DNA of 36,188 nt from Acidobacteriaceae bacterium (lineage in GTDB: Bacteria; Acidobacteriota; Terriglobia; Terriglobales; Acidobacteriaceae). A program made the translations under genes and the position numbers. This document shows positions 4,492-30,680 of the stretch, in pieces; position 1 is the stretch's first letter, and each line of letters opens with the position of its first letter. The notes under the pieces were generated by a model that was given only the letters and a program-made list of their open reading frames with translations, was not told the origin of the DNA and ran no database searches. The DNA is taken from assembly GCA_003166855.1 (NCBI GenBank), contig PMUM01000178.1, positions 1 to 36,188 of the forward strand, read 5' to 3'.

Positions 4492-4517
4492 GTTGGATTC
4501 CTCCAGTTTCGAGAGTG

Positions 4518-5411: not shown

Positions 5412-5599
5412 CGCTACCTCCGCATGCGAGAATCGGTCTGGGAACAGCACTGTCCGCTTCGTAAGCGAACATGGGGAGCTATTCTACTATCACCCGCGAG
5501 ACCTGAAGACCTCTTCCATCACAGCGCAGCGTCGTTGCCACATTATCTTCTTGTGGTTTCGCGCCACTGACGAAACACCTCCTTATATATGTATTGTGC

Positions 5600-5635
5600 T
5601 GTCCGGTAGTGGACAATTGGTTCCGGCAGTGGACA
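5600..5635. promoter_or_regulatory. Paired activator-type binding sites (TGTCC-N6-GGACA)
   Basis: Site 1 (5600-5615) reads TGTCCGGTAGTGGACA, a perfect 5-bp inverted repeat with a 6-bp spacer. Site 2 (5620-5635) reads GTTCCGGCAGTGGACA and matches site 1 at 13 of 16 positions, with the GGACA arm intact. Centres are 20 bp apart, close to two helical turns, so two dimers could bind the same face of the DNA. If transcription starts near 5736 the sites lie around -108 and -128, the usual zone for sigma-54 activator sites. The likely binder is the NtrC-type regulator at 32658-34070, by inference only. Confidence 0.5.
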
Positions 5636-5709: not shown

Positions 5710-5725
5710 TGGAAGGCGAGTTGCC
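5710..5725 (+). promoter_or_regulatory. Possible sigma-54 (-24/-12) promoter
   Basis: TGGAAGGCGAGTTGCC keeps the core GG and GC dinucleotides exactly 10 nt apart and retains TGG and TTGC of the TGGCACG-N4-TTGC consensus, with C-to-A and C-to-G changes in the -24 box. It would start transcription near 5736, only about 3 nt before the ATG at 5739, giving a nearly leaderless message. That is unusual, though it would fit the lack of a Shine-Dalgarno there. If translation instead starts at the GTG at 5709 this element lies inside the gene and the call falls. Confidence 0.3.
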
Positions 5726-7045: not shown

Positions 7046-7771
7046 ATGACTGAAGCAGGGCAGCCGTTGATCCAAATTCAGGATCTGACCAAAGTCTTCT
7101 ACACCGACGAAATTGAAACCCACGCACTTTCAGGCGTGCACCTCTCGATTGCTAAGGGCGAGTATGTGGCCATGTCGGGACCTTCGGGTTGTGGCAAGTC
7201 GACGTTACTCTCCATTATCGGATTGCTCGATACGCCGACGCAGGGGCGTTACTCATTGAACGGCAAGACAGTAGAGAACCTCGATTTTGCCGAGCGTTCC
7301 CGCATCCGCAACCAGGAGATCGGGTTCATCTTTCAGAGTTTCAACCTGATTGGTGATCTCACGGTGTACGAGAACGTCGAACTGCCGCTCACGTACCGGC
7401 AGAGAATGCCTGCGGCCGACCGGAAGGCGCGGGTCATGGAGGCGTTGGAGCGCGTCGGAATGGCGCACCGTGTCCGGCACTATCCTTCGCAACTTTCCGG
7501 TGGTCAGCAGCAGCGCGTCGCCGTGGCGCGTGCGCTGGGAGGAAAGCCTTCCATCCTGCTGGCCGACGAGCCTACTGGAAATTTGGACTCGCGCAATGGC
7601 GAAGCGGTGATGGAGTTGTTGCAGAACTTGCACCGCGAGGGCGCGACGATCTGTATGGTGACGCACGATCCGCGGTTCGCCAAGCACGCGCAACGCGAAG
7701 TGCATTTGTTCGACGGCAAGGTTGTGGCGGAAGAAGAGCTGCAGAAGCTGATGGCTGACGCGCACGCGTGA
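7046..7771 (+). CDS. MacB/LolD-type ABC transporter ATPase (ATPase 1)
   Basis: 241 residues, a stand-alone nucleotide-binding domain of the MacB/LolD/FtsE group. Walker A GPSGCGKS (45-52), Q-loop FIFQSFNLI (Q97), signature LSGGQQQRVAVARA (from 150), Walker B LLADE (E175), D-loop GNLDS and switch H207 (VTHD) are all canonical, so it should hydrolyse ATP. FQSFNL and ADEPTGNLDS are typical of MacB-type ATPases. A GAGG lies 10 nt before the ATG. It sits between the adaptor and the first of nine ADOP permeases (18-nt gap), suggesting it powers one or more of them. In MacB itself the ATPase and permease are one polypeptide; here they are separate. Confidence 0.93.
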   Translation: MTEAGQPLIQIQDLTKVFYTDEIETHALSGVHLSIAKGEYVAMSGPSGCGKSTLLSIIGLLDTPTQGRYSLNGKTVENLDFAERSRIRNQEIGFIFQSFNLIGDLTVYENVELPLTYRQRMPAADRKARVMEALERVGMAHRVRHYPSQLSGGQQQRVAVARALGGKPSILLADEPTGNLDSRNGEAVMELLQNLHREGATICMVTHDPRFAKHAQREVHLFDGKVVAEEELQKLMADAHA

Positions 7772-7789
7772 ACGGCCTGGGAGTAGCCT

Positions 7790-10282
7790 ATGAACAGCCT
7801 GGTTCAGAATCTCCGTTATGCGCTGCGCCAGCTGCGCAAGAGCCCTGGGTTCACGACCGTCGCGGTGTTGACCCTTGCTCTCGGAATCGGCGCGAACACA
7901 GCCGTATTCAGCGTAATGAACTCGGTCTTATCTCGCATGCTTCCAGTGCGCGATCCGGGGCGTCTTTATTACTTGCAGATCGCCAGCGGGAATCAGCCGC
8001 CAGGCGCAAGTAATACAGGCAACAGTGATACGTCGTTCTCAGAGCCGGTGTTCGAGGCGCTTCGCCAACGCAATGACGTTTTGGATGACTTGATCGCGTT
8101 CGTTCCTCTCGGCATTGGCAAAGTTCCGGTTCGATACGGAGCCATGCCGGAAGAGGCCAGTGGCGATGAAGTCAGCGGAAACTTCTTTTCGGGCCTGAGC
8201 GCGGGAATTGCCCGTGGTCGCGGCTTTTCTCTGGCGGATGAGAAGGATCATTCACCAGTAGCCGTCATCAGTTATGACTATTGGACACGGCGTTTTTCAC
8301 GGGACCCGGCGGTCCTCGGCGCGACGCTGTTCGTCAAGAATGTGCCTTTCACCGTTGTCGGCATTGCTGCGCGCGGTTTTCGCGGAGTCGAAGCGGCCAG
8401 TTCAACGGACTTTTGGATTCCTCTGCAAAGCCGGGCGGAACTGAACGCGTGGGGCACTCCTGCCAACGTCAACAGCCTCTATGGAACGCCGACATGGTGG
8501 TGCCTCCCGCTGATCGCCAGGCTCAAGCCGCATGTCTCACCGGGGCAGGCGGGAATAGCCCTGCAGTCTACCTTCGGGGAAGCAGCCAAGATTGGAGTCG
8601 GCACCATTGATCCGAAGCATTGGAAGCCGTCGCTGAACTTCGATCCAGCCAAGGGGATTCAAGGCTATAACCAGCAGTTCCGCGAGCCAGTGCGGATCTT
8701 GATGGGCCTGGTGCTTCTGGTGCTGCTGATTGCCTGTACCAACGTTGCTCTGCTGATCATGGCTCGCAATGAAGCACGGCGACGGGAGTTCAGCCTGCGA
8801 ATGGCAATTGGAGCAGAAAGAGCGCACCTCTTTCGGCAACTGCTGACAGAGAGTTCGCTCCTGGTCATCGCCGGTGCGGGCCTCGGTTGGGCATTCGCCG
8901 TCTTCGCTACGCGCGCTTTGGCCGATTGGTCGGGAATCGAGACCGGCCTCGATCCTGACCGTAACGTGTTGTTCTTTACCCTTGCTATTTCGGTGATCAG
9001 CGCTTTGGCCTTCAGTGTCGCTCCGCTGTGGGTTGCATTGCGGATTCCGGTTTCGGGTGTGCTGCGGGCTACTGCAACCAATATCACTCAGGACCGGCGC
9101 CGTGCACTTGGCGGCAGGGTTCTGATGGCGTCGCAGGTGGCAATTTGTCTTTTGCTCCTGATCGCTGCCGGACTTCTCATTCGCACTCTTCGAAACTACG
9201 AGACTCAGGATCTCGGAATGCGCGCGGACGGGCTGCTGGTTTTTGGAATCACGCCGCAGCGCGCGCAGAGTGCCCAGGAGGCTCTGGCGTTCTATCGCAC
9301 TCTGCTCGACCGCATTCACGCTTTACCAGGCGTGGAATCCGCGACGGTCATGGAAAATCGCCTCGGCTCCGGTTGGAGTAACAACAATGACGACCCCGTG
9401 GACGGAGTCAATCTCTTGGCGAAATTTGGCCCGCAGTCCATCGTGCGGAGCAACAACGTCGGTCCGGGTTACTTCCATGTGCTCGGAGTCCCAATTCTCG
9501 AAGGCCGGGACCTCGCCGACACCGACACTCCGACCTCTCTTCCGGTCGTAGTAGTGAATGAAACGTTTGTGAAGCGGTTTCTGCCGAATACGAACCCGCT
9601 GGGTCACAGGGTTCGCGATAACCGAACGATCGTGGGCGTCGTGAAGGACAGTCGATACACGCGCGTCGATGAGACGCCGATGCCGATGGCCTACTACGCA
9701 GCGTTCCAAGGTCTCAATGTCGGGGACACGTTGCATGTCGAGGTGAGGGTGAATGGCGAACCGATGAGCGTTCTACCTTCAATCCGGCAGTTGGTTCACG
9801 ACATGGATCCCAATGTCCCCTTGGAGAAGCCAATAACACAGCGTGCGCAATTTGAGGAATCTTATGCGGGGCCGACTATGTTTGCGCGACTGGGCGGATT
9901 CTTCGGCGGGCTGGCTGCGCTGCTAGTTGCGACCGGGCTCTACGGCACGCTGTCGTATCGAACCAACCGGCGCACAGCCGAGATTGGAACACGCATGGCG
10001 CTCGTGAGCTCCACGGGGCCGGGTGCTCTGGATGATCATGCGGGAAAGTCTTCTGATCAGCTGCGCGGGGGCGGCGGCCGGGTTCGTCCTCGCGTTCTTC
10101 TGCGCCCGTCTCCTGAAGTCGATGCTTTACCAGTTGTCCCCGCTCGACGCCGTCAGCTTCGGGCTTGCGACATGTTGCGTTGTGAGCGTTGGGTGCGTTG
10201 CCGCATTTCTGCCTTCCTGGCGGGCAGCGAAAGTCGATCCGATGGTGGCCCTGAGGTACGAGTAGTGGGAGGCGAACGATGA
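7790..10282 (+). CDS. ADOP/MacB-type permease 1, with a C-terminal frameshift
   Basis: The open frame is 830 residues, but only the first ~738 are normal. It has the N-terminal amphipathic segment [16 protein letters not shown]1 with [16 protein letters not shown], a periplasmic MacB-like domain, the first FtsX core near residue 316 ([15 protein letters not shown]), a second periplasmic domain and the start of the second FtsX core ([14 protein letters not shown], then EIGTRMAL). From about 10005 the frame is wrong: the read product becomes Arg/Pro-rich. The expected tail, through [11 protein letters not shown], two further helices and [13 protein letters not shown], lies one frame over and ends at 10265. 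Removing T10005 would restore MALGAPRGRV and an 824-residue protein. GGGAG precedes the ATG. As read, the product lacks its last two or so helices and is probably not functional, unless the extra base is a sequencing error. The shifted frame overlaps the next gene by ATGA. Confidence 0.85.
10005..10265 (+). pseudogene. Out-of-frame 3' remnant of ADOP permease 1
   Basis: From 10008 to the TAG at 10263-10265 the +1 frame encodes the missing end of the second FtsX domain: [15 protein letters not shown], hydrophobic stretches [15 protein letters not shown] and [18 protein letters not shown], then [13 protein letters not shown], which matches the other eight permeases. In this frame positions 10005-10007 read TGA, so the piece is not continuous with the upstream frame. 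It shows that the reading frame was intact until recently or that one base is miscalled. Confidence 0.8.
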
Positions 10283-10331
10283 ACTGGTTGCTGCAAGACC
10301 TTCGCTATGCGGTGCGGCAGTTGCGCAAGAG
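10227..10331 (+). repeat. 105-bp junction repeat, copy A (permease 1/2 junction)
   Basis: This stretch and 12682-12786 are identical at 103 of 105 positions, both running from the last codons of one permease gene, across its stop and the 13-nt spacer, into the first ~17 codons of the next. The flanking coding sequences are far more divergent. Confidence 0.95.
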
Positions 10332-12720
10332 CCCGGGGTTCACAGGCGTGGCCGTGCTGACCATCGCGCTGGGGATTGGCGTAAATGTTGCCACTTTCAG
10401 TTTCGTGGACGAACTGTGGTTGCATCCGATGCCGGTACGAGATGCGAACCGTCTAGTGCGCATCTTTACCAGCAATCCCAGCAGCCAGGGGGAAATCGAG
10501 CGCGGCTACAGTTCATACCCTGACTTTCTGGACCTGCGCGCCAATTCCAGGACACTTGCGGGAGTGGCGGCTCTCGATAATCGTGGGGCGCAGGTGGATG
10601 ACGGCGTGCAGAATAGGTTGGTGTCAGCGGCCGTGGTCTCGGAGAATTTCTTTGAGGTGCTCGAAGCCTCGCCCGCCCTCGGGCGGACGTTCACCGAAAA
10701 GGAATTTCAGAATTCGCAAGTACCGTCGGTTGTGCTCAGTTACCCATTCTGGCGGCGACAGTTCAATGGCGATACAACACTTCCGGGACGAATGATCATC
10801 GTCGACAACCAGCCAGTGACCGTACTGGGTATTCTGCCGCGAGGGTTCCGAGGTTCAGAGGCGCTCGTGGTGCCTGATCTCTGGATTCCCATGCCAACAT
10901 GGCAGCAACTCACGGGCGAGCACGAAAAGCAGACCATCCGGGGATCGCGCGAATACGAACTGTTCGGGCGATTGCGGGAGGGCGTCATTCTGCAACAAGC
11001 CAAAGCAGAATTGGGAACGGTTGCTGCCGCATTGGCCAGTTCTTATCCGGAGTCGGATGCTGGACGCAGAATGACCGTCGCTGCAGAAGATGAGACGCGA
11101 GGTGGAGTCGCGAACATCGGCTTGGCACTGCTGGGCATAGCGGTATTGGTGCTGTTGGTCGCGTGCGCCAACGTTGCCGGTCTCTTGATTGCGCGCGGGG
11201 AGTATCGGCGGAAGGAGATTGCAACGCGGTTAGCTTTGGGCGCTTCGCGAGGAAAGGTCGTACGCCAGTTACTCGCCGAGACCGCCTTGCTGGCAACAGC
11301 AGCCACGGTAACAGCATTGTTTTTCGGAAGAGTTGTGCTCAATGAACTCCCTACCTTGTTGCCGCAGACTAGCTTTCCCATCTTCGTAGACGCTCATCTG
11401 AACTCGCGTGCTCTGCTATTTGCTCTGGCGACGGCGACCGCCTCCTTGTTCCTTTTCGGGTTGGTTCCGGCACTACAGGCCACAAACGTCGGTCCGGCCA
11501 CCATGCTCAAGCAATCCGGCGCAGTGATCGGAACCGGACGCCGGAGATTGAGAAGTGCTCTTATCGTCACGCAGGTTGCGTTGTCGCTGGTGATGGTCGT
11601 GTGCAGCGGTCTGCTGGCACGGTCGGTAATAAAGGCGCTGGCTCTCGATCCCGGCTTCAGCGCCCATCAGAACATGCTCATCATGGAGTTGGTGCCGGAC
11701 TTCGGTACGAAGAGCGAAGAAGGCAGCAAGGCATTCGTGCGCGAGGCGCGCCGAAGGCTGCAGGCGCTACCCGGAGTGAGCGCAACTACTACCGCGATGC
11801 GGTTTCCCTTCGGGATGAGTGGCGGCGGTGCGACACGCAAAGTATTTCTTGGGAATCTGGCAAGCGCAGCCGCTGAAGGCGCCACTATCAATTTTGACCC
11901 TGTGGGGGAAGGGTACTTTTCAGTATTGGGTACCCGACTCGTGCGTGGCCGCGCCATCGAGCAGCACGACTTGGATGTGAATGCCCATGTCATGGTGGTA
12001 AATCAAGCCATGGCAAACCGTTTCTGGCCCAATGGGAACCCCGTGGGGCAACGACTTCGCTTGGGCCGGTCAGACGGAGATGAGTACGAAGTAGTCGGAG
12101 TCGCGGAAGATGGGAAATACAACGATGTGCGAGAAGACCGAATGCCCTACTTGTTTCTGCCCATGAAGAGCGACGAATACGGCGAACTGGTGATGGCAGT
12201 GAAAACTAGCGTCGATCCGGAGGCACTGGCCCCAGCGGTGCGAAGAGTACTGCGCGAACTCAACCGCGGAGTGCCCATTATTTCTCTCGTGACGTTGCGA
12301 GAGCACATGCGGGAGGCGCTCTACGAAGAGCGAGTCATGGCGGGACTAATTGGCGTGATGGCCGGATTGGGCCTTCTGCTGGCGGCGGTCGGGATCTATG
12401 GACTGATGGCCTTTCTGGTGGGGCGGCGCATCCCGGAGATCGGAGTCCGAATGGCGTTGGGAGCACAGCGCGGAGGAATTTTCCGGCTGGTGATCGGACA
12501 GGCTCTGCGGCTGACGGCAATCGGCACGGCAATTGGCATAGCGGGCGCCATTGCGGCGGCGCGAGCGGTGCGCAGCCTGTTGTTTGGAGTCTCGCCAGCC
12601 GACGTATTCACGATTGCGATTGCGGTTTCCGTGCTGGCGGTGGTCGCATTCACAGCAGCGGCGGTGCCTGCACTGGGTGCGGCGAAAGTCGATCCGATGG
12701 TGGCCCTGAGGTACGAGTAG
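10279..12720 (+). CDS. ADOP/MacB-type permease 2
   Basis: 813 residues with an intact double-FtsX layout: [14 protein letters not shown] and TM1 ([17 protein letters not shown]) at the N-terminus, a MacB-like periplasmic domain, first FtsX core near residue 294 ([31 protein letters not shown]), a second periplasmic domain from about residue 430, and a second core at about 692-731 ([32 protein letters not shown]). It ends [10 protein letters not shown]. Eight helices in one chain would equal a covalent MacB dimer. It belongs to the group with MPVRDANRL after TM1, like permeases 1, 3 and 9. GGGAGG lies 8 nt before its ATG, within the 105-bp repeat shared with permease 3. Confidence 0.93.
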
Positions 12721-12786
12721 TGGGAGGCGAACGATGAACGGGTTGCTGCAGGACCTTCGCTATGCGGTGCGGCAGTTGCGCAAGAG
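12682..12786 (+). repeat. 105-bp junction repeat, copy B (permease 2/3 junction)
   Basis: Partner of 10227-10331, offset 2455 bp (one permease unit), differing at two positions. It covers the end of permease 2, the stop, the ribosome-binding site and the start of permease 3. Confidence 0.95.
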
Positions 12787-15217
12787 GCCGGCCTTTTTTT
12801 CGGTCGTCGTGTTGACGCTTGGGCTGGGCATTGGAGCCAACACTGCCATTTTCAGCATGGTGGATTGGCTGGTGTTGCGGTCTTTGCCGATCAAGGATCC
12901 GCAGCAGATACATTTCCTGGCATTTACCCGACCCGGCGCCAATTCCGAAATTCAATTCTCTTATCCCGAGTTTGCAGATATTCAAAAACAGACCACGGAT
13001 GTGTTTTCGGGTATAACGCCATTCATTTTTGGCGGTCTGGCGGGCGAGCAGAATTCGCAGAGTGGCTTGACCGCAGACGGTACGACCAAGCCAGTTCAGA
13101 CGGCCTACGTGGGCGCCGACTTCTTCTCTCTGCTGGGCATTGCGCCCGCCTCGGGCCGCTTCATTTTGAGCACCGAGGGGAAGGCCGCGGGCGCGGACCC
13201 GGTAGTCGTTCTGAGTTACAACTATTGGCAGACTCGCTTTGCCGGTGACCCCGCTATTGCCGGGAAAGCCGTTTCAATCAACGGTCACCCCGTCACCATC
13301 ATTGGAGTCGCGCCGAAAGGTTTTCTTGGGCCGACTCCGCTTCTCAATATCCAGGCGTATCTTCCGCTGAGCATATTCCTGATTGAGAGAGGAGTTGCGG
13401 GCGACTTCCTGGCCAATCCCAGCACCCGCAGCATGCTCGCACTGGCGCGAGTAAAGCCCGGAGCGAATTCGAAACGAATCCAGTCCGAGCTCGCCGTCGT
13501 GGGCCAGCGCCTTCTAAAGCAATATCCCAGAGATCGCGGAATTGGCGAATTGCAGGCCAATCCCTTGCGCCCGCCAGGAATCATGAGCGGGTCGACGAAT
13601 CCCTTCCCCAAGCTGGCAGCTCTGTTCCTGACTCTTGCTGGCTTGGTGCTGGCTTTGGCCTGTGTGAACGTTGCAAACCTCTTTCTGGTTCGAGCGGCAG
13701 CGCGACAGCGCGAGATGGCGGTACGCGCTGCGCTAGGCGCCGGGAGTGGCCGGTTAGTTCGCCAACTGTTCACAGAGAGTCTGGTTGTGGCGGCTCTCAG
13801 TTGCGGTTTGGGAGTAGTGCTGGGCTTGTCCGCAACGCGCCTGCTGGGCTCTGTGCCTCTGCAGAGTGAGTTGCCGATCGTGTTTGACTTCGAGTTCAAC
13901 TGGCGGGCGTTCGCGTATGTCTTCGCAGTCGCGGCGGCGACCGCGGCGTTCGTTGTTGTTGTGCCTGCGGCCCGCATCCGGCATGGCAACTTGCGGGAAG
14001 TGTTGCACGAAGGCGGACGCACATCGACCGGTGGACGCCAGCGTTTGCGCGACATCCTGGTCGCCGTGCAGGTTGGCGGGTCGCTGACTTTGCTGATCGT
14101 TGCAGGATTGTTTGTCCGCAGTCTTCGCGGCGTCCAGACCAGCGATTTGGGGTTTGATCCCCAGCATGTCCTCAATTTGACGCTCGACCCAAACGAGATT
14201 GGCTATACGGAGCAACAGGGAAGAGCCTTCTATCGCGCGATGCTGGAGCGTGCGCGAGCTCTGCCGGGAGTACAGTCGGCCAGTCTTGCGTCGGTTGTTC
14301 CGCTCAGTGACTCCGTCCAGGGCAGCGACTTGATGATTCCTGGATACGCCACCTCTGCAAACCAGGAAGCACCGCACGCCGAAGATGATGCTGTGTCTTC
14401 GGATTACTTCAGGACCATGCGCATCGCGCTGAAACGCGGTCGTGATTTCACCGATGCGGACAACGAAAACGCGCCCCACGTTGCTGTGATCAACCAGGCG
14501 ATGGCGGAACACTTTTGGCCGCGTCAAGATCCGCTGGGAAAGTCTTTCACGCTGACTTCTGGTCCAAAGCATCCCGCGACGATCGTTGGCGTCGTGCAAA
14601 ACAGCCGGATGAACCAACTCTATGGGGAATTCGAACCGATCTTCTATCTGCCGGCGGCGCAGAGTTACGTGTCGACTGAGACGCTGCAGATACGCTCGGA
14701 ACGAAGCGCGCAGGACATGGTCGCCGAAGTACGAACAATCGCACAGTCACTGGCGCCGGCGATCCCGGTCTATGGCGTGCGCACGATGACGGAAGCCCTT
14801 CACGGCGGCAATGGGTTGTTGTTCTTCGAAGTCGGAGCGAGCCTGGCCGCTGCGTTGGGATTGCTAGGGCTGATTCTCGCAGTGGTGGGCGTGTACGGAG
14901 TGATGTCGTACGCCGTCAGCCAGCGCACTCAAGAGATTGGCGTTCGCATGGCGCTGGGGGCTCAGCGTCGCGATATTCTGAGAATGATCGGACGCCAAGG
15001 AGCAGTGATTGTCGCATCGGGCCTAACCGTCGGTTTGCTTGCCGCGCTCGCCGCGGGGCGGCTGGTTAGCGATTTTCTCGTCGGCATTACGCCGAGTGAC
15101 CCAATTACCTACGTGGGCGTTTCACTTTTGCTGGCCGCCATCGCATGTGTGGCTACCTATATTCCTACGCGTCGGGCGACCAAGATCGATCCGATGGTGG
15201 CGCTGAGATATGAGTAG
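12734..15217 (+). CDS. ADOP/MacB-type permease 3
   Basis: 827 residues. The N-terminus [17 protein letters not shown] departs from the KSPGF seen in most neighbours, then TM1 contains [15 protein letters not shown]. The first FtsX core lies near residue 309 ([32 protein letters not shown]) and the second at about 702-742 ([33 protein letters not shown]). The end is [10 protein letters not shown]. The post-TM1 segment RSLPIKDPQQIHFL places it with permeases 1, 2 and 9. Its start region is nearly identical to that of permease 2 but the similarity stops abruptly after 12786, so only the junction was copied recently. No frameshift or premature stop is visible. Confidence 0.93.
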   Translation: MNGLLQDLRYAVRQLRKRPAFFSVVVLTLGLGIGANTAIFSMVDWLVLRSLPIKDPQQIHFLAFTRPGANSEIQFSYPEFADIQKQTTDVFSGITPFIFGGLAGEQNSQSGLTADGTTKPVQTAYVGADFFSLLGIAPASGRFILSTEGKAAGADPVVVLSYNYWQTRFAGDPAIAGKAVSINGHPVTIIGVAPKGFLGPTPLLNIQAYLPLSIFLIERGVAGDFLANPSTRSMLALARVKPGANSKRIQSELAVVGQRLLKQYPRDRGIGELQANPLRPPGIMSGSTNPFPKLAALFLTLAGLVLALACVNVANLFLVRAAARQREMAVRAALGAGSGRLVRQLFTESLVVAALSCGLGVVLGLSATRLLGSVPLQSELPIVFDFEFNWRAFAYVFAVAAATAAFVVVVPAARIRHGNLREVLHEGGRTSTGGRQRLRDILVAVQVGGSLTLLIVAGLFVRSLRGVQTSDLGFDPQHVLNLTLDPNEIGYTEQQGRAFYRAMLERARALPGVQSASLASVVPLSDSVQGSDLMIPGYATSANQEAPHAEDDAVSSDYFRTMRIALKRGRDFTDADNENAPHVAVINQAMAEHFWPRQDPLGKSFTLTSGPKHPATIVGVVQNSRMNQLYGEFEPIFYLPAAQSYVSTETLQIRSERSAQDMVAEVRTIAQSLAPAIPVYGVRTMTEALHGGNGLLFFEVGASLAAALGLLGLILAVVGVYGVMSYAVSQRTQEIGVRMALGAQRRDILRMIGRQGAVIVASGLTVGLLAALAAGRLVSDFLVGITPSDPITYVGVSLLLAAIACVATYIPTRRATKIDPMVALRYE

Positions 15218-15223
15218 GAGGTC

Positions 15224-17674: not shown

Positions 17675-17683
17675 GGAGATCCG

Positions 17684-20116: not shown

Positions 20117-20127
20117 CAAGGAGACGA

Positions 20128-22569: not shown

Positions 22570-22576
22570 GAGACTC

Positions 22577-25000
22577 ATGAAAACACTACGGCAGAACGCT
22601 CGCTACAGTATTCGATTGCTGCGGAAAAACCCCGGCTTCACCCTGATCGCCGCACTCACGCTTGCGCTGGGCATTGGTGCGAACACTGCCATCTTCAGTG
22701 TGATTTACGCTGTAATACTAGCTCCCATGCCGTATCCCAATCCTGATCAGTTGGTGATGGTGTGGTCGAAGGTTCAGGGCGGCAACAACGTAGTTGCGGC
22801 TGGCGACTATCTGGATTGGAAGGCCCAGAATAAAGCTTTCCAGGACATCAACGCGTGGAGCGGCGCCAACTTCAATTTCGCCACCGCCGACCAACCGGAA
22901 CAAATCAATGGAAGCGCCGAAACACCAGGATTTCTCCGCATGACCGGCAACGCCTTTGTGATGGGGCGCGATCTTCTCCCCGAAGAAGGAGTACCCGGCA
23001 AGGACCACGTAGTCATCCTCACTCACCGGCTTTGGGAGCGTCTCGGTGGCGACCGTAACATTATCGGCAAGCCGATTCAGATGAACAGCGAGCCGTACAC
23101 GGTGGTGGGAGTGCTGGCGGCGGGACAGACTGACCGACTCCAGTCCCAGTTTGTCGTGCCCCTGTCTTTCAAACCTGAGCAGATCAATCACGACTTTCAC
23201 TGGCTGCTGGTCATGGCCCGCATGAAGCCGGGCGTCTCGTTGTCCCAGGCGCAGGCCGACATGGAACTGGTGACCAACCGCATTGCACAAGATCACCCGC
23301 AAAGCAACAAGGGCTGGGGCGCCAGCGTGGAAGAGCTTCACAACGATTTTTTCCCGAAGGAGGCGAAGCAAACGCTCTGGCTCTTGATGGGCGGGGTTGG
23401 CTTTATCCTTCTTATCGCTTGCGGCAACGTTGCCAACCTGGTGCTGGCCAGGGGGACGACGCGGCTAAAAGAGGTAGCGGTCCGCACTTCGCTGGGCGCG
23501 ACCCGATGGCACGTGTTCAGCCAGTTTCTGACGGAGAGCCTGGTATTGGCGGTACTCGGCGGTGCGCTCGGGATTGGGTTAGGCGCGGCGATCATTCGGA
23601 TCATGATGGCGAAGATGCCGCCCTTCACTCTTCCTTCCGAAGCAGATGTGACTCTGAATATCCCTGTTCTGTTATTCACTCTGTTGGCTACTACGATCGC
23701 CGGTATGCTGTTCGGTTGCGTTCCAGCGTGGCAGGCCTCGCGCGTCGATCCCAATGAGACGCTGAAGGAGGGCGGACGCTCAGGCACAAGCGCCGGAAAG
23801 CATCGGCTCCGCAGATCTCTCGTCGTCGGCGAGTTTGCTCTAGCGCTGACCTTGCTGGCTGGCGCCGGTCTTGCCATCCACAGCTTCTGGAACCTGGCAC
23901 GAGTCGATCCCGGTTTCCGCACCGATCACATTCTCACCTTTAACCTTCCCGTGCCGGAGAAGCGACTCACGCAACCAGAGCAGATCGTCGCGTACTATCA
24001 GCAACTCATCGAGAAGATCGAGTCGCTTCCGGGAGTGATCCGCGCCGAAGCGGCTACCGGCATGCCCCTTCAAGGCACGAACTTCGGAATGCCATTCACC
24101 ATCGTAGGCAAGCCGGTCGCAGATCCGTCCGCTCGTCCCGGTGCCGGATTCCAGATGGTCACTCCCGGATTCTTCCAGACCTTCGCCATCCAGATGGCGA
24201 AGGGCCGGGCGTTCACCGATCAGGACACCGCCAGCAGCGTGCGAGTCGCGATCGTGAATGAGACTTTCGTCAACCGCTATCTTTCCGGAGTAGATCCTCT
24301 AACCCAGCGCATCTTGGTCGAGCAGTTGATTCCGGGTGTGACCAAGCTGGGACCGCCGCTCGAGTGGCAGATCGTCGGGGTCTATCGCAATACGCATAAC
24401 GGCGGCATTCGCAGCACTGGCTTTCCAGAGATCGATGTTCCTTTCGCGCAGAGTCCCTGGCCGCAAGCTTCCATGGCGGTGCGAACCACCGGCGACCCGG
24501 CGCAGATGAGCAAGAGCATCGCCGGCGCGGTTCACTCCGTCGACGCTGACCTGGCCTTGGCCAATGTGAGGACCATGGATCAGATTGTCAGCGAGTCTTT
24601 GGTGGGAGATCAGTTCACGACTGCGCTCTACATCAGCTTTGCGACGGTGGCGCTGGTGCTGGCCGCGATCGGCATTTACGGCGTCATGGCGTTCGCCGTG
24701 GCCCAGCGCACGCACGAAATCGGATTGCGAATGGCGCTGGGCGCGAGTCAGGATCATGTGCTCGGACTGATTCTGAAAGAGGGCATTATCCTGGCCGCCA
24801 TCGGCCTGGGTCTGGGGTTGGTGGGAGCCTGCTTTGTCGGCCGTGCCATGCGCGGACTGCTGTACGGAGTGGGCACGATCGATATCGCAGCGTTCAGTGC
24901 GGTCGCGGTCACGCTGTTCATGGCTGCGCTGCTCGCATGCTACCTGCCCGCGAACAAGGCAGCGAAGGTCGATCCCATGGTTGCGCTGCGCTACGAGTAG
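22577..25000 (+). CDS. ADOP/MacB-type permease 7
   Basis: 807 residues. The N-terminus reads ARYSIRLLRKNPGFTLI, then TM1 with [24 protein letters not shown]. The marker is GDYLDWKAQNKAF. FtsX core 1 is near residue 281 (LIACGNVANLVLARGTTRLKEVAVRTSLGAT), core 2 at about 686-724 (LVLAAIGIYGVMAFAV, EIGLRMALGASQD). The end is [13 protein letters not shown] after NKAA, where the others have arginine pairs. The gene is intact. GAGTAGGAGACTC leads into its ATG, so the preceding stop codon sits next to the Shine-Dalgarno, 7 nt upstream of the start. Confidence 0.93.
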   Translation: MKTLRQNARYSIRLLRKNPGFTLIAALTLALGIGANTAIFSVIYAVILAPMPYPNPDQLVMVWSKVQGGNNVVAAGDYLDWKAQNKAFQDINAWSGANFNFATADQPEQINGSAETPGFLRMTGNAFVMGRDLLPEEGVPGKDHVVILTHRLWERLGGDRNIIGKPIQMNSEPYTVVGVLAAGQTDRLQSQFVVPLSFKPEQINHDFHWLLVMARMKPGVSLSQAQADMELVTNRIAQDHPQSNKGWGASVEELHNDFFPKEAKQTLWLLMGGVGFILLIACGNVANLVLARGTTRLKEVAVRTSLGATRWHVFSQFLTESLVLAVLGGALGIGLGAAIIRIMMAKMPPFTLPSEADVTLNIPVLLFTLLATTIAGMLFGCVPAWQASRVDPNETLKEGGRSGTSAGKHRLRRSLVVGEFALALTLLAGAGLAIHSFWNLARVDPGFRTDHILTFNLPVPEKRLTQPEQIVAYYQQLIEKIESLPGVIRAEAATGMPLQGTNFGMPFTIVGKPVADPSARPGAGFQMVTPGFFQTFAIQMAKGRAFTDQDTASSVRVAIVNETFVNRYLSGVDPLTQRILVEQLIPGVTKLGPPLEWQIVGVYRNTHNGGIRSTGFPEIDVPFAQSPWPQASMAVRTTGDPAQMSKSIAGAVHSVDADLALANVRTMDQIVSESLVGDQFTTALYISFATVALVLAAIGIYGVMAFAVAQRTHEIGLRMALGASQDHVLGLILKEGIILAAIGLGLGLVGACFVGRAMRGLLYGVGTIDIAAFSAVAVTLFMAALLACYLPANKAAKVDPMVALRYE

Positions 25001-25006
25001 GAGATA
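24962..25006 (+). repeat. 45-bp junction repeat, copy C (permease 7/8 junction)
   Basis: Identical to 27380-27424 at 44 of 45 positions. It covers the last 12 or so codons of permease 7, the stop and the GAGATA spacer. This is a second, separate pair of homogenised junctions. Confidence 0.9.
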
Positions 25007-25012
25007 GGAAAA

Positions 25013-27418
25013 ATGAGCGGACTTATCCAGGACGTGCGTTACGCCCTTCGCCAACTGCGCAAGAGCCCCGGGTTCACGCTGGTTGCCGTGCTCACTCTGG
25101 CCTTGGGAATTGGCGCCAACACCGCCATCTTCAGTGTGGTGGAAGGCGTTCTTCTGCGGCCACTGCCGTATCACAATTCGGACCAACTGGTACGTATGTG
25201 GTCCACTTCCAACCGGTCGTCCAAAGATGTGAGTTCTTATCCCGATTTCAGAGATTGGGCCGATCAGAACCACAGTTTCGAGCTGATGGCGGCCTATCGA
25301 GGCCAGTCCTTCAATCTCACCGGGGGCGATCATCCAGAACGGATTAGGGGGCTGATGATTACCTCCAAGTTTTTCGAGTTGCTGGACGTGAAGCCGATCC
25401 TCGGACGCTCGTTCACCAGCGATGAGCACGAACTCGGGCGCAATCACGTCGCGCTTCTCAGTTCGGCTCTTTGGCAGAGCCACTTTGCAGGCGATCCCGG
25501 TGTTCTCGGTCGAAGCGTCAAGCTCGACGACGAAAGCTACACCGTGATTGGTGTCCTGCCCTCTTCGTTTGATTTTCCTCCCGACGAGACCAGGGGAGGC
25601 GTAGTCCTTCCTCTTCCGCCGGATGCGCGCCGCAGCCACGGCTTTCTATATGTGTTCGGCCGTCTCAGGCCCGACACGACGTTGGCGTCAGCTCAAGCCG
25701 ACATCGATACAATCGCTCGACGGCTTGCCGGACAATACAAAAAAGAGGATAAGGGCGAGGGAGTATTAGTCCAAACGTTGCAGGCTTCCTTTGTGAGCGA
25801 CTACCGTCCTGCGCTAATGATCTTGCTCGGCGCTGTTGGATTAGTGCTGCTCATCACATGCGCGAACGTCGCCAACTTATTTCTGGGGCGGGCAAGTTCG
25901 CGGCAAAGAGAAGTCGCCGTCCGCGCTTCTCTGGGCGCGGGACGCCTGCGCTTAATGCGCCAGTTCCTGACTGAGAGCTTGCTGATCGGCCTCGCAGGCG
26001 GCACGGTGGGTCTGGTATTTGCCAACTGGGGCGTGAGCATGCTGGTGCGGCTTCTGACCCAGAGCTTTTCGATTCACGGAACGGAAGCAATCGCTACCAA
26101 CCTTGATGTGCTCACCTTCGCGGCCGTGATATCAATCATGACCGGTTTGATTTCAGGGCTTCTTCCTGCGCTTTTCGCTTCGAAGGTCAACCTGAGCGAA
26201 GGATTAAAAGAGGGAAGCCGCAGCGTCGGAAGTGGCCGGGCGCACAAACGCTTCCGCGGCGCGCTGGTGGTGTCTGAGGTCGCTCTCGCGCTTGTGCTCC
26301 TCTCTTGTGCAGGACTATTGATCAGGAGCCTCATGCTGCTGACTCGCGTCGACTCAGGCGTGCAGACGGAGAATGTGATGGCGATCCACCTGTCGCTGAC
26401 GACCGCCAAGTACTCTCATACCGCGACGCGGGCCGCTTTGTTCAGCCAGATACTACAGCGAGTCGGTCAGTTGCCCGGTGTCGAATCCGCGGCGGTAGTG
26501 GCGGATGTTCCTCTCACCCAGAACGAAGACAGCCTTGGCTTCAGCATCGAGGGGGTTCCGGACCCTCCGGACCGGAAGCTGAGTGTTCGCTTCAACATTG
26601 TCGGTCCCGGCTATTTCACCACCTTGGGCATCCCACTGACCCACGGCCGCGACTTTGCAGACACTGACTCGGACGGCACGCCGATGGTCATCGTCGTCAA
26701 TCAAGCGATGGCGCGGCGCTTTTGGCCGAACCGGAATCCGATTGACCGGCGTATCACGACAGACGACAAAACCTGGTACTTGATCGTCGGTGTCGCTGGC
26801 GACGTTCGTCAAATGGGTCTGCGGGCAGACTCTGAGCCCGAAGTCTATATGTCCTATCTGCAGGATCCATTTCAGTGGCCGTATTTGAGTTTGCTGGTAC
26901 GCGCCAGCTCGAATCCGGTAAAACTCTTCCCCTCGATCGAGCAGGCCGTCTGGTCTGTCGATAAGGACCAACCTCTGTCAAATCCAATTACTCTTGATCA
27001 GGTCCGGTCGCACTCGATCGCGCAACCTCGAATCGCGGCCCTCTTATTAGGACTCTTCGCGGGTGCGGCTCTGTTGCTCGCGGCGGTCGGACTCTATGGA
27101 GTCGTAAGCTACTGGGTTGCGGAGCGGACCCACGAGATCGGCGTGCGCATGGCGCTCGGTGCCAGGTCGTTCGACGTGTTTGTAAGTGTGGTCGGACGCG
27201 GATTGCTGCTCGCGTTGCTGGGGACTGCTTTCGGCTTGGCGGGGTCCCTGGCCGTGACCCGGGTGTTGGCCAGTTTCCTGTTTAGCGTCCGCCCCACCGA
27301 TCCGCTGACGTTTGCGGCCGTGGCATTGCTTCTGATGTGCGTCGCCCTGGTTGCCAGCTACTTTCCAGCCCGACGTGCGGCGAAGGTCGATCCCATCGTT
27401 GCGCTGCGCTACGAGTAG
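25013..27418 (+). CDS. ADOP/MacB-type permease 8
   Basis: 801 residues, the shortest intact copy. It begins [19 protein letters not shown], with TM1 [27 protein letters not shown]. The marker is [13 protein letters not shown]. FtsX core 1 is near residue 282 ([31 protein letters not shown]) and core 2 at about 679-719 ([28 protein letters not shown]). It ends [10 protein letters not shown], the one copy with Ile for Met in the tail. It is the last member of the 4-8 block. Its end and the following spacer nearly repeat those of permease 7. Confidence 0.93.
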
Positions 27419-27424
27419 GAGATA
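27380..27424 (+). repeat. 45-bp junction repeat, copy D (permease 8/9 junction)
   Basis: Partner of 24962-25006, offset 2418 bp. The single difference turns the Met codon of the conserved tail into Ile in permease 8. Confidence 0.9.
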
Positions 27425-27430
27425 AGACAC

Positions 27431-29941
27431 ATGATGACTGGATTCACACAAGACGTTCGGTACGCGTTGCGGCAGTTGGGCAAGGCTCCGGGCTTTGCCG
27501 CGGTCGCCATCATCACGCTCGCGCTCGGCATCGGCGCGAACACAGCGATCTTCAGCCTGCTCGACCAGGCGCTCCTCCGTACCCTCCCGGTGAAGGATGC
27601 TGATCGCCTGGTGATCCTGCAATCTCTGGGCAGTTTCAACGGACACACCAGTTCCCGCACAGATGAGAACTTCTCTTTCTCGTATCCCATGTATCGCGAT
27701 CTCCGCGACGGCAATTCCGTTTTCAGCGGCCTAATCGCCACGGACAAGGTGTCGGTGGGAGTGCAGTGGCACAACCAGCCTGAACTGGTCGACGGCGAAT
27801 TGGTTTCGGGGAACTATTTTGACGTGCTGGGCGTGCAACCCGCTCGGGGTCGTCTCCTGGTCGCATCCGATGACGTCGTGCCTGATGCGAATCCGGTAGC
27901 GGTTTTGAGCTTCAGTTACTGGCAACGCCGCTTTGGTTCGGACTTTGCCGTTGTGAACCAAAGCATTCTGATCAATGGCCGTCCCTTCACTGTCCTCGGA
28001 GTCGCGCCGCCCGGTTTTCACAGCGTGGTCATGGGCGACACTCCCGATCTGTTTGTGCCCATGAGCATGAAAGCGGAAATTCGGCCGGGTGTTACCGACC
28101 TTCTCGATCGCACGTCCCGCTGGCTCAACATTGTTGGGAAGCTCAAGCCCGGACTCACTCGCGAGCAGGCAGAGGCCGGCATCAATCCGCTCTGGTACTC
28201 CATCCGCGCCGACGAACTCAAGCAGCGGGGACACAGCTCGGAGCACTTCAAGGAGAGTTTCCTGACCAAGTCGCACCTGTTCGTTCGCGACGGAGCCAAG
28301 GGATTCTCCCCTCTGCGTGCCGACGTGCAAGAGCCGCTGGTGATCATCATGGGCATGGTCGGGCTGGTGGCGCTGATGGCGTGCGCCAACGTGGGCAGCC
28401 TGTTGCTGGTTCGCGCCGCCGGACGCATTCGCGAAATGTCTGTCCGCTATGCGTTGGGAGCTAAGCGTGCACGCGTGGTGCAGCAGTTATTGGTGGAAGG
28501 ACTGTTGCTCGGCCTGGCGGGAGGTGCGCTCGGGATCCTGATTGCGCCCCGCATCTCGGCGTGGCTGATCAATATGATCTGGAGCCGCACGGCTGGCGAT
28601 CTGCCATTTTCGTCGCATCCGGATCTGCGGATTTTAGTCTTCAATTTCTCGCTGGCGCTGCTGGTAAGTCTGATTTTCAGCCTCGCTCCTGCGGTGCAGT
28701 TCTGGCGTCCGAATCTGGCGCCCGCGCTCAAGCAGCAGGCGATGACGGCTGGCGGCGGACCGCTGCGCTTCCGTCGCCTTTCGGTTGCGGTCCAAATCGG
28801 ATTGAGCATTCTCGTGCTGGTCGGCGCAGGCCTGTTCGTGCGTACACTACACAATCTCAAATCGCTGAATGTTGGCTTTGAAACCGATCATCTTGTGACG
28901 TTCGGTGTACAGGCGACGCTTGCGGGGTATCAACCCCATCAAACCCGCGATCTGGATACGCGAATACTACAAACACTAGCGGCGCTGCCAGGAGTGCGCT
29001 CCGTGGCAGGTACGACCGATCGAGAACTGGCGGACACCAACACGTCGAACAACATTACGCTTGCCGGATACACGGCAAAAGAGAACGAGGACATGAACGT
29101 GGAGTCGCCCCGTGTCAGTCCTGGCTACTTCTCGACGATGGGAATGCCACTGGTCGCGGGTCGCGAATTTACCGACCAGGATCGCGATGCGACCCATAAG
29201 GTCGCAGTGGTGAACGAGAGCTTCGCCCGCCACTATTTCGGCGAACCGGAGCTGGCGATCGGCCACTATTACGGCAAGGGCGGAGGCCAGGTTGCAATCG
29301 ATACTGAAATCATCGGCGTCGTGAAGGACGCCAAGCACACCGGTGTTCGCCAGGAGATCACCCGCACCACGTTTGCTCCATATCTTCAGGAGTCGAATCC
29401 GGGCGCGATGACGTTTTATGTTCGCATCTGGCAGTCACCGGAAAGCGCAGAAGGAACGATCCGCACTGCGATGCAGACGCTAGATTCCAAGCTCGTTCTG
29501 GATACTTTCCGGACGATGGAGGAACAGGTCGATGACATTCTGACAACCGAGCGGGTGATCGCGATTCTGGCGTCGGCCTTCGGTGCGCTCGCTGTGCTCA
29601 TGGCCGCCGTCGGACTCTACGGCGTCCTGGCTTATTCAACGGCGCAGCGGACTCGCGAGATCGGCATTCGCATTGCTCTCGGCGCCGGCCGCACTTCCGT
29701 AATGCGCATGGTACTGGTTGAAGTGCTGTGGCTCGCTGGGATCAGCATTGCGGTCGCATTGCCGGCTTCGCTCCTGCTCACTCGTGCAGCGCGCAGCCAG
29801 TTGTTCGGCATTTCAAGCAGCGATCCATTGACTCTGGTCGTGGTAACTCTGGTGGTCGCGGTGGTCGCGCTGGCATCGGCGCTGCTGCCGGCGCGCCGCA
29901 CGGCCAAGACAGATCCCATGGTGGCGTTGCGTTACGAATAG
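27431..29941 (+). CDS. ADOP/MacB-type permease 9
   Basis: 836 residues, the longest copy. It starts with a double ATG and [17 protein letters not shown] (Gly-Lys-Ala in place of Arg-Lys-Ser), then TM1 with [31 protein letters not shown]. That LPVKD segment groups it with permeases 1-3, although it lies after the 4-8 block. FtsX core 1 is near residue 316 (LMACANVGSLLLVRAAGRIREMSVRYALGAK) and core 2 at about 716-753 ([30 protein letters not shown]). It ends [10 protein letters not shown]. ATPase 2 follows after 28 nt, making it the permease nearest to that ATPase. The gene is intact. Confidence 0.93.
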   Translation: MMTGFTQDVRYALRQLGKAPGFAAVAIITLALGIGANTAIFSLLDQALLRTLPVKDADRLVILQSLGSFNGHTSSRTDENFSFSYPMYRDLRDGNSVFSGLIATDKVSVGVQWHNQPELVDGELVSGNYFDVLGVQPARGRLLVASDDVVPDANPVAVLSFSYWQRRFGSDFAVVNQSILINGRPFTVLGVAPPGFHSVVMGDTPDLFVPMSMKAEIRPGVTDLLDRTSRWLNIVGKLKPGLTREQAEAGINPLWYSIRADELKQRGHSSEHFKESFLTKSHLFVRDGAKGFSPLRADVQEPLVIIMGMVGLVALMACANVGSLLLVRAAGRIREMSVRYALGAKRARVVQQLLVEGLLLGLAGGALGILIAPRISAWLINMIWSRTAGDLPFSSHPDLRILVFNFSLALLVSLIFSLAPAVQFWRPNLAPALKQQAMTAGGGPLRFRRLSVAVQIGLSILVLVGAGLFVRTLHNLKSLNVGFETDHLVTFGVQATLAGYQPHQTRDLDTRILQTLAALPGVRSVAGTTDRELADTNTSNNITLAGYTAKENEDMNVESPRVSPGYFSTMGMPLVAGREFTDQDRDATHKVAVVNESFARHYFGEPELAIGHYYGKGGGQVAIDTEIIGVVKDAKHTGVRQEITRTTFAPYLQESNPGAMTFYVRIWQSPESAEGTIRTAMQTLDSKLVLDTFRTMEEQVDDILTTERVIAILASAFGALAVLMAAVGLYGVLAYSTAQRTREIGIRIALGAGRTSVMRMVLVEVLWLAGISIAVALPASLLLTRAARSQLFGISSSDPLTLVVVTLVVAVVALASALLPARRTAKTDPMVALRYE

Positions 29942-29969
29942 AAAGTCTGATTCATGAAATGAGAATGAA

Positions 29970-30680
29970 ATGATCCAACTGAAGAATATCGACCGCAGCT
30001 ACAAAACTGGCGCCGGACGAACCTGGGTGCTGCGCCGTGTGAACCTCGACATTCGCGAAGGCGAGTTCATCACTGTGATGGGACCATCCGGAGCAGGGAA
30101 GTCATCGCTCTTGAATGTTCTTGCGCTTCTCGATGACCAATGGGAAGGCGAGTACTGGTTTCGAGAGCAGGGCGTGCACGACCTGAAACGCAAGCAGCGG
30201 GCTGAACTGGCCAAGAAGAATGTTGGGATGGTCTTCCAGAGTTATCACCTGCTTGACGACCTCACCGTGCAGGAGAACATCGATCTGCCGCTCTCCTATA
30301 AAGACATTCCGCGCAATCAGCGGCAGAGCCTGGTGGCCGACACGCTCGATCGCTTCCAGATCGTGGCCAAGAAAGATCTGTATCCCAGCCAGCTCTCGGG
30401 AGGTCAGCAGCAGCTCGTGGGGATCGCTCGGGCCGTGATCCACAAGCCGCCGCTGCTGCTGGCGGACGAGCCCACCGGCAACCTGCATTCGCTCCAGGCC
30501 AAGGAGATCATGGAACTCTTCCGCGGCCTGAATGAGCAGGGAACCACGATCGTGCAGGTCACGCACTCGGAAGCGAACGCGGCTTACGGGAGTCGCACCA
30601 TTCAACTGCGGGACGGATGGCTCGTAGGGGACACAGCCAATCCATCGCTCGCTCAGCCAGCGGAGGTCAGCGCATCGTGA
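29970..30680 (+). CDS. MacB/LolD-type ABC ATPase with altered D-loop (ATPase 2)
   Basis: 236 residues. Walker A GPSGAGKS (38-45), Q-loop MVFQSYHLL (Q90), LSGGQ (142-146), Walker B LLADE (E167) and switch H199 (VTHS) are present. Two changes set it apart from ATPase 1: the signature helix reads LSGGQQQLVGIARA, with Leu for the usual Arg, and the D-loop is GNLHS, with His173 for the usual Asp. The D-loop Asp helps couple the two ATP sites, so activity or dimer asymmetry may be altered, and a heterodimer with ATPase 1 is conceivable. The Shine-Dalgarno is weak (TGAGAATGAA), and a two-codon ATG-AAA-TGA lies just upstream at 29954. Its stop overlaps the GTG start of the TolC-type gene by two bases. 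Confidence 0.9.
   Translation: MIQLKNIDRSYKTGAGRTWVLRRVNLDIREGEFITVMGPSGAGKSSLLNVLALLDDQWEGEYWFREQGVHDLKRKQRAELAKKNVGMVFQSYHLLDDLTVQENIDLPLSYKDIPRNQRQSLVADTLDRFQIVAKKDLYPSQLSGGQQQLVGIARAVIHKPPLLLADEPTGNLHSLQAKEIMELFRGLNEQGTTIVQVTHSEANAAYGSRTIQLRDGWLVGDTANPSLAQPAEVSAS

Follow-up and report, generated by a model that had tools for sequence, protein, structure and literature searches.

Nine ADOP permeases between two ABC ATPase genes of an Acidobacteriaceae genome: a candidate shared-motor export system

Contig PMUM01000178.1 of an Acidobacteriaceae bacterium (assembly GCA_003166855.1; C240 in our numbering) was analysed over its full length of 36,188 bases, which we call the window. The genome measures 6.94 Mb in 479 contigs and is 93.4% complete and 6.3% contaminated. 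The window carries nine permeases of the ADOP family, which lie head to tail (7790-29941) between two genes for ATP-binding cassette (ABC) ATPases, here ATPase1 (7046-7771) and ATPase2 (29970-30680), just as a first-pass annotation of the sequence had described. That annotation had not noticed the remaining genes of the operon: a periplasmic adaptor precedes ATPase1, and a TolC-family outer membrane channel, a sigma-54-dependent response regulator of the NtrC type and a histidine kinase follow ATPase2. The order is thus adaptor-ATPase1-[ADOPs]-ATPase2-TolC-regulator-kinase. We think it likely that the operon encodes an export system of the type VII (MacB/LolCDE/YbbAP) ABC class, in which a shared motor serves a large set of swappable ADOPs. 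The proposal draws on the gene order and its conservation, the variability of the array, the co-occurrence of motor and ADOPs, their common promoter signature, the docking elements that the permeases retain, and their fold.

In the mechanism that we propose, the adaptor, ATPase1, an optional ATPase2 and TolC would form one motor-and-conduit set, and export would proceed through TolC. Each ADOP, as a single chain equal to two fused MacB halves, would pair physically with ATPase1 or ATPase2 by docking two ATPase subunits through its two coupling helices and its conserved C-terminal tail. At least some of the ADOPs scattered over the genome, along with those of the array, would take turns on the one motor set; they would differ in substrate, and most of their differences lie in the periplasmic domains that would meet it. 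The operon's regulator, together with the kinase, would act on enhancer sites; with the enhancer and sigma-54 promoter common to the motor operon and some of the scattered ADOPs, it would switch on both.

A conserved frame around a variable array

All nine window permeases pass the curated cut-off of the ADOP family TIGR03434 (693-992 bits vs. 622.3). Pfam recognizes two MacB_PCD plus two FtsX stretches in eight of them, and two MacB_PCD plus one FtsX in copy 1, which was tested only up to its frameshift. Their pairwise identity is only 29-42%. The copies are therefore old paralogues, which rules out an array made by recent tandem duplication. The tail that the first-pass annotation had found in every copy, one frame over in copy 1, is there: a degenerate DNA pattern of it, with up to three mismatches allowed, matches the window at nine places, once for each permease, where shuffling gives 0.01. 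In copy 1 the family match breaks between 10003 and 10008 and the tail continues in another frame to about 10265, so that the open reading frame (ORF) 7790-10282 ends in unrelated residues. The break lies inside the second coupling-helix region and may reflect either a genuine mutation or a fault of the assembly; two relatives have an intact counterpart of copy 1 in the same position (824 aa; 94% and 85% identical).

The word "orphan" in the ADOP name denotes the absence of an ABC ATPase gene nearby. With ATPases at 7046 and 29970, the array members lack this feature and the name does not describe them. It does describe 14 further full-length ADOPs outside the window in the same genome: no ATPase1- or ATPase2-like gene was found near them in the stretches examined, several of which end at a contig end.

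The regions around ATPase2 were annotated with the window's proteins in 35 of the 36 relatives that hold this gene (the match in G034, cut by a contig start, was omitted). Within the genus, the adaptor, ATPases, TolC, regulator and kinase keep their order at about 58-99% identity, the ATPases being mostly 83-99% identical. What lies between the two ATPases varies in number, identity and order. In 15 same-genus genomes with both ATPases on one contig, the numbers of permease ORFs between them, fragments included, are 1, 1, 2, 3, 4, 4, 6, 7, 8, 9, 9, 9, 9, 10 and 10. Two of these genomes, G018 (four ORFs) and G021 (nine), also carry a 42%-identical ATPase paralogue upstream of the adaptor. When 112 ADOP ORFs of the annotated regions and the 14 scattered ones were clustered at 60% identity, they fell into 24 groups and 32 singletons, with changing order. 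G004, whose ATPases are 99% identical to those of the window, has copies 1-4, 7 and 9 but not 5, 6 and 8, and it has two other permeases.

Further afield the parts come apart. In a sister family (f2), both ATPases are in view in eight genomes (G037, G039, G040, G041, G043, G047, G048 and G049), and none of these has an ADOP between them; TolC sits there in three of the eight. Genome-wide, ADOP matches number at least 13 in every one of them. In G058, of the same class as the window, ten consecutive ADOP ORFs have no ATPase in view; its motor operon, adaptor-ATPase1-regulator-kinase, lies on another contig and holds no permease. It follows from this split arrangement that the parts need not adjoin. 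The first-pass annotation had named ADOP arrays without flanking ATPases as evidence against real ATPase partners. Such an array literally exists in G058, yet it would still fit a motor acting in trans.

Among named genomes, the best 80 of 581 candidate ATPase1 loci were inspected; their hosts include Terriglobus roseus, Granulicella, Edaphobacter, Silvibacterium, Bryocella, Acidicapsa and also Verrucomicrobiota. The nearest named relatives by ATPase1 are metagenome-assembled genomes of Acidobacteriota, including a Terriglobia bacterium (97%) and Candidatus Sulfotelmatobacter (89-92%). The adaptor comes directly before ATPase1 at 74 of the 80 loci. The gene after ATPase1 is an ADOP at 50, ATPase2 at 10, TolC at five and the regulator at two; at nine there is another gene or strand, and at four the contig ends. 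ATPase2 is in view at 34 loci at least (the view ends at 10 kb or at the contig end). Bracketing by two ATPases, which the first-pass annotation had taken as the telling feature, is thereby ruled out as a rule: ATPase2 is optional, being present in 73 of the 120 genomes with ADOPs (see below), and the G058 array has no ATPase in view.

A locus in G143 (C12:20000-39500) deserves mention beside these. It comprises an adaptor-like gene, an ATPase1-like gene (54%), four permeases of 800-811 aa and ATPase2 (60%). The permeases are only 24-27% identical to those of the window, and G143 has no ADOP at E<=1e-150. The locus appears to follow the same plan with a more distant set of permeases.

Co-occurrence and a common promoter signature

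Presence was called at E<=1e-150 for ADOPs (TIGR03434), and at a best E<=1e-90 for ATPase1 and 1e-85 for ATPase2; the two ATPase thresholds were chosen after a gap in the E-values was visible. ADOPs were scored per genome as presence only, and the ATPase1 threshold excludes the ATPase1-like genes found in family f12 (57% identical in G061). Of 327 genomes of the phylum, 109 have both ADOPs and ATPase1, one has ATPase1 alone, 11 have ADOPs alone and 206 have neither (phi 0.92). The sole genome with only ATPase1, G356, has a contig-cut ADOP-like ORF beside it. The association holds within genera: in the 14 mixed ones, 86 of 89 genomes are concordant, against 57.8 +/- 3.7 upon within-genus shuffling (maximum 74 in 100,000). 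In the window's genus (37 genomes), ADOPs are present in all 27 genomes with ATPase1 or ATPase2 and in one of the ten without, indicating that loss of the motor goes with loss of the ADOPs altogether. ATPase2 also occurs in two genomes without ADOPs.

A second link is at the level of regulation. Alignment of 15 same-genus genomes before the adaptor reveals a palindrome, TGTCC-N6-GGACA, a second GGACA half and then, about 95 bases on, a sigma-54-type element, GG-N10-GC, just before the adaptor start codon. Elements at -24/-12 are the consensus of sigma-54 promoters. A scan with the consensus alone was rejected as evidence because it performs at chance level in the window (43 found, 42.8 expected); the element is credible only by virtue of the cross-genome alignment and the combined pattern.

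The genome as a whole contains the exact palindrome at 11 places, the reversed control at three. One is at the motor operon, four are just upstream of scattered ADOPs, one each lies before a gene for a receiver-SpoIIE protein and a DUF4440 gene, and four are unexplained. Upstream of the 14 scattered ADOPs, the palindrome is exact in four cases and has one mismatch in one, whereas upstream of 161 other ORFs in the same stretches the figures are zero and four. Palindrome and sigma-54 element combined give 52 matches in 45 genomes of the genus, against two in the reversed control. The gene downstream is the adaptor in 17, an ADOP in 13, a DUF4440 protein in nine and a receiver-SpoIIE protein in six. 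Seven matches are unassigned; two of these are a palindrome that is among those counted above and was read in the reverse direction. Thus 45 of the 52 precede four gene families, and all seven matches of this genome are accounted for. Three of the 45 assignments are weaker: the ADOPs at G004:C87 and C126 were placed by coordinates, and the DUF4440 gene at G004:C139 by sequence likeness only.

The pattern precedes the receiver-SpoIIE gene in six genomes of the genus and the DUF4440 gene in nine (one by likeness only), and both genes are possible members of the motor operon's regulon. The DUF4440/SnoaL-like protein has a signal-like N-terminus. The receiver domains of the SpoIIE protein and of the operon's regulator are similar, and the same kinase might serve both. 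In the regulator the sigma-54 loop reads GAFTDA in translation; the consensus of this loop is GAFTGA.

Among six same-genus genomes, the exact palindrome is found at four ADOPs in G004 and at one each in G022 and G011. In other families, the site before the adaptor has no mismatch in G039 and G047, one in G037 and G048, and two to four in six others; before six ADOPs in view it has three or four mismatches, and before the ADOPs of G051 and G040 at least two. The enhancer and the -24/-12 promoter hold, then, for the motor operon and a subset of the ADOPs only. As a separate observation, several ADOPs of the G058 array (C34) have TGG-N10-GC upstream with no exact TGTCC palindrome, an element count made without a control.

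Fold, docking elements and rival readings

A profile built from 65 ADOPs finds MacB (E 2e-44), YtrF, LolF, LolE, YbbP and FtsX in the Protein Data Bank. The AlphaFold2 model of copy 8 (pLDDT 91.1; predicted template modelling score, pTM, 0.86) contains eight long helices that span the membrane, along with two domains in the periplasm and two short coupling helices (298-306 and 706-714). In each half the coupling helix lies between transmembrane helices 2 and 3, as judged from the model and from alignment to MacB. The closest solved structure is YbbP of YbbAP (Z 24.8, root-mean-square deviation 9.4, 664 residues aligned, 12% identity), followed by BceB and single MacB-type halves; MacB itself scores Z 19.7 for one half. 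In YbbAP two ATPases go with one permease, according to the published account (PMC12646458).

The segments that would face the ATPase are better conserved (mean 3.0 bits) than the periplasmic domains (1.75 bits), and among the cytoplasmic parts conservation peaks in the coupling helices and the tail. Aligned to MacB, the tail motif is an ordinary MacB-family C-terminus, the element that is termed a "minor coupling helix" and touches the ATPase in MacB (PMC5985334). A regular expression for the coupling motif matched half 2 in seven of the eight array copies of this genome and both halves in 68 of 100 named copies; these matches are incomplete because positions were also demanded, and aligned columns were relied on instead.

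The two ATPases are 41% identical to each other. ATPase1 has DEPTGNLD and LSGGQQQR in all sequences of two sets (22/22 and 80/80). ATPase2 has LSGGQQQL throughout (35/35 and 34/34 orthologues) and, in its D-loop, a histidine (DEPTGNLH) in 35/35 and 33/34, or 68 of 69 overall, across Acidobacteriota and Verrucomicrobiota; the two sets overlap in at least two genomes (G012 and G011). ATPase2 keeps Walker A and the H-loop histidine (in the first set, one sequence ends short of the H-loop). In ABC dimers the aspartate of the D-loop touches the opposite subunit, and ATPase2 is therefore possibly the partner in an asymmetric heterodimer. An obligate heterodimer is not favoured, as 40 of the 110 genomes with ATPase1 have no ATPase2 at our thresholds.

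How far the motor is shared has to be weighed against several observations that point the other way. Of the 14 scattered ADOPs, ten lack an array relative at 60% identity or more among 23 genomes compared, nine have no palindrome at zero or one mismatch, and three adjoin a PadR regulator (TIGR03433), from which it follows that some ADOPs have private regulation and that there are at least two regulation classes. Among the six same-genus genomes above, G006 and G027 show no exact palindrome at any placeable ADOP, and G012 shows it only at the motor operon. Beyond the genus the palindrome is frequently absent, including before adaptors; in G058 none precedes the array, and the sites before its adaptor and ADOPs have at least two mismatches. 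Of the 11 ADOP genomes without ATPase1 at threshold, three hold ATPase2 and eight do not, seven of these eight being under 90% complete. Moreover, some of the co-occurrence would arise anyway, since the operon itself often includes at least one ADOP. Other ATPases could serve the scattered ADOPs, since LolD-like matches (E<=1e-60) are present in nearly all genomes (313 of 327), including 203 of the 217 without ATPase1.

One alternative we regard as fairly unlikely: the array permeases use ATPase1 and ATPase2, the scattered ones use other LolD-like ATPases or none, and joint gain and loss stem from shared history or lifestyle. Besides the ubiquity of LolD-like genes, it can invoke the missing enhancer before most scattered ADOPs, the PadR neighbours of some, and the exact tail DP[MI]VALRYE, found in 60 of 90 array copies of the genus and in one of the 14 scattered copies. 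However, it is ATPase1 whose presence tracks ADOPs, not that of the LolD-like paralogues. The same permease groups occur both inside arrays and scattered, four of the 14 grouping with array members of other genomes at 65-75% identity (grouping at >=60%). Part of the scattered ADOPs bear the promoter signature of the motor operon, and there are permease-less motor operons, and an array with no ATPase in view, in genomes having both. An ordinary MacAB-TolC-like multidrug operon grown by duplication is quite improbable. Permease number would then be meaningless and each permease might form its own fixed pump. The adaptor, ATPase, MacB-like permease and TolC are indeed the parts of MacAB-TolC, and the folds match MacB, but the copies are divergent, the set differs and is reordered between species whose ATPases are mostly 83-99% identical, and ATPase genes are few where ADOPs are many: each of 37 genomes holding ATPase2 has one match to it, and ATPase1 has one in 39 of 42 and two in three, as compared with 14-45 ADOP matches at E<=1e-100 (array members included) in each of six motor-bearing relatives. 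It is also unlikely that the ADOPs are mechanotransmitters, extracting lipids or lipoproteins or activating periplasmic enzymes, as YbbAP-TesA, LolCDE and FtsEX do, rather than exporters. The fold class is the same and YbbP is the closest structure; the complex of YbbAP with TesA is reported to extract hydrophobic compounds (PMC12646458). Against this stand the adaptor and TolC of the operon, which point to a tripartite conduit. The shared motor with swappable permeases and the real ATPase partners for these "orphans", both suggested by the first-pass annotation, gain support from the co-occurrence, the permease-less motor operons, the cassette-like variation and the promoter signature, with the pairing itself still a matter of inference.

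A broader form of the shared-motor reading is conceivable, though we hold it only tentatively. The operon would represent a modular class of exporters following the logic of energy-coupling factor (ECF) transporters with type VII chemistry. ATPase1 alone, or an ATPase1-ATPase2 heterodimer, would make up a fixed station with the adaptor and TolC, upon which whole permeases are exchanged, and the array would be a cassette deck whose permeases come, go and change order while the ATPase genes on either side stay in place. The ends of the nine paralogous genes are the most alike at the DNA level: ungapped identity is 0.67-0.70 in the first 120 bases and 0.85 in the last 30; at the start side it drops to 0.26 from base 180 onward, at the end side to 0.42-0.45 further in. 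One permease group has the array-type tail in an array (G009) and another tail when scattered (L033 of this genome; G028, upstream of the adaptor), which hints at an exchange of gene ends. Cassettes are perhaps exchanged by recombination in the conserved first ~120 and last ~30 bases; this would explain an array tail in the array and another tail when scattered within one group. Alike gene ends are also expected from selection for docking.

Known systems and the features of the window

MacAB-TolC resembles the present system in its adaptor, the MacB-type periplasmic domain, the coupling elements, TolC and the tripartite layout. Here, in contrast, the ATPases are separate ORFs rather than fused to the permease, the permease is (in the model) an eight-helix fused dimer in one chain instead of the four-helix MacB, there are many permeases per ATPase set, a second ATPase has an altered D-loop, and regulation is of the sigma-54 type. 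YbbAP(-TesA) of E. coli shares the single duplicated permease chain and the two separate LolD-like ATPase subunits, besides being closest in structure. It differs in having one permease per ATPase gene and, in the part of the report available, ten transmembrane helices in YbbP (vs. eight long ones in the ADOP model) and no description of an adaptor or TolC (PMC12646458). The darobactin exporter came up since DarD is the best NCBIfam match of both ATPases and the adaptor and permease weakly match DarC and DarB. It was rejected, with all scores below their cut-offs (DarD 249.5 bits for ATPase1 and 238.8 for ATPase2, cut-off 375; DarC 64.6, cut-off 450; DarB 17.4, cut-off 700), and the ADOPs match their own family far better.

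MsiK and the group II ECF transporters are known cases of one ATPase (set) that energizes several transport parts encoded elsewhere. MsmK does so for sugar importers (PMC4519317). All of these are importers of other ABC types, whereas here the system is of type VII, comes with adaptor and TolC, and has the whole permease as its exchangeable part. In search listings of open-licence PubMed Central papers we found no report of a type VII ABC system with a shared motor, which this would be if the proposal is true. In the same listings the spelled-out ADOP name appeared only in the description of a Dyadobacter, "ADOP family" did not appear with permease, and TIGR03434 not at all; a paper on duplication in Solibacter, in the portion available, does not treat the family. 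ADOPs form large paralogous sets in many Acidobacteriota, and one motor for them would open tens of genes per genome, so far without an explanation, to testing as a single system. The array also offers natural interchangeable permeases on a fixed ATPase for studying substrate choice in type VII transporters.

The features are collected in Table 1. The adaptor start is the ATG after the promoter, taken from the translation, and the GTG of the ORF list was not used; the regulator start is an ATG inside the listed ORF, also read in translation. In NCBIfam the adaptor scores 91.0 bits for RND_mfp (cut-off 94.9).

Table 1. Features of the motor operon and array, and related sites elsewhere in the genome (positions without a contig name refer to the window)
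Feature	Position	Strand	Evidence or remark
Enhancer-like palindrome TGTCCGGTAGTGGACA	5600-5615	+	Conserved non-coding, 15 same-genus genomes aligned
Imperfect second copy of enhancer-like site TTCCGGCAGTGGACA	5621-5635	+	Same 15-genome alignment
Sigma-54-type -24/-12 element TGGAAGGCGAGTTGC (GG-N10-GC)	5710-5724	+	Conserved in alignment; part of combined pattern
Periplasmic adaptor, HlyD/RND_mfp/DarC-like	5739-6998	+	Pfam HlyD_3, HlyD_D23
ATPase1, LolD/MacB/DarD-like ABC ATPase	7046-7771	+	ABC_tran; DEPTGNLD and LSGGQQQR
ADOP permease 1 (frameshifted)	7790-10282	+	TIGR03434 matches 7799-10003 and 10008-10262; tail motif 10236-10262
ADOP permease 2	10279-12720	+	TIGR03434 808.8 bits; two MacB_PCD and two FtsX stretches
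ADOP permease 3	12734-15217	+	TIGR03434 837.7 bits; Pfam
ADOP permease 4	15224-17674	+	TIGR03434 991.6 bits; Pfam
ADOP permease 5	17684-20116	+	TIGR03434 926 bits; Pfam
ADOP permease 6	20131-22569	+	TIGR03434 941.1 bits; Pfam; ATG 20131 used, ORF list start 19921
ADOP permease 7	22577-25000	+	TIGR03434 907.2 bits; Pfam
ADOP permease 8	25013-27418	+	TIGR03434 992.3 bits; AlphaFold2 model
ADOP permease 9	27431-29941	+	TIGR03434 895.3 bits; Pfam
ATPase2, LolD/DarD-like ABC ATPase	29970-30680	+	ABC_tran; DEPTGNLH and LSGGQQQL
TolC-family outer membrane channel	30677-32650	+	Pfam OEP 131.4 bits; exact start uncertain, ORF opens 30617
NtrC-type response regulator	32658-34070	+	Pfam Response_reg, Sigma54_activat, HTH_8 (receiver, sigma-54 AAA+, Fis helix-turn-helix)
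Sensor histidine kinase	34060-35499	+	Pfam HATPase_c; HisKA below its cut-off
PadR regulators beside ADOPs	C191:12754, C436:6006, C183:500, C147:5329		TIGR03433; at C147 ADOP start only
Combined pattern before receiver-SpoIIE phosphatase and DUF4440/SnoaL-like genes	C358:12890, C358:5702		Stretch C358:1000-16500

Two neighbours of the operon lie on the minus strand. An ABC-2 type permease fused to an M1-peptidase-like domain (1230 aa), with an ATPase of its own, occupies 799-5450 and diverges from the adaptor; no such gene was seen beside the motor operon in the other annotated regions of relatives. At the other end, a gene for a BON-domain protein (35796-36188) runs off the contig end.

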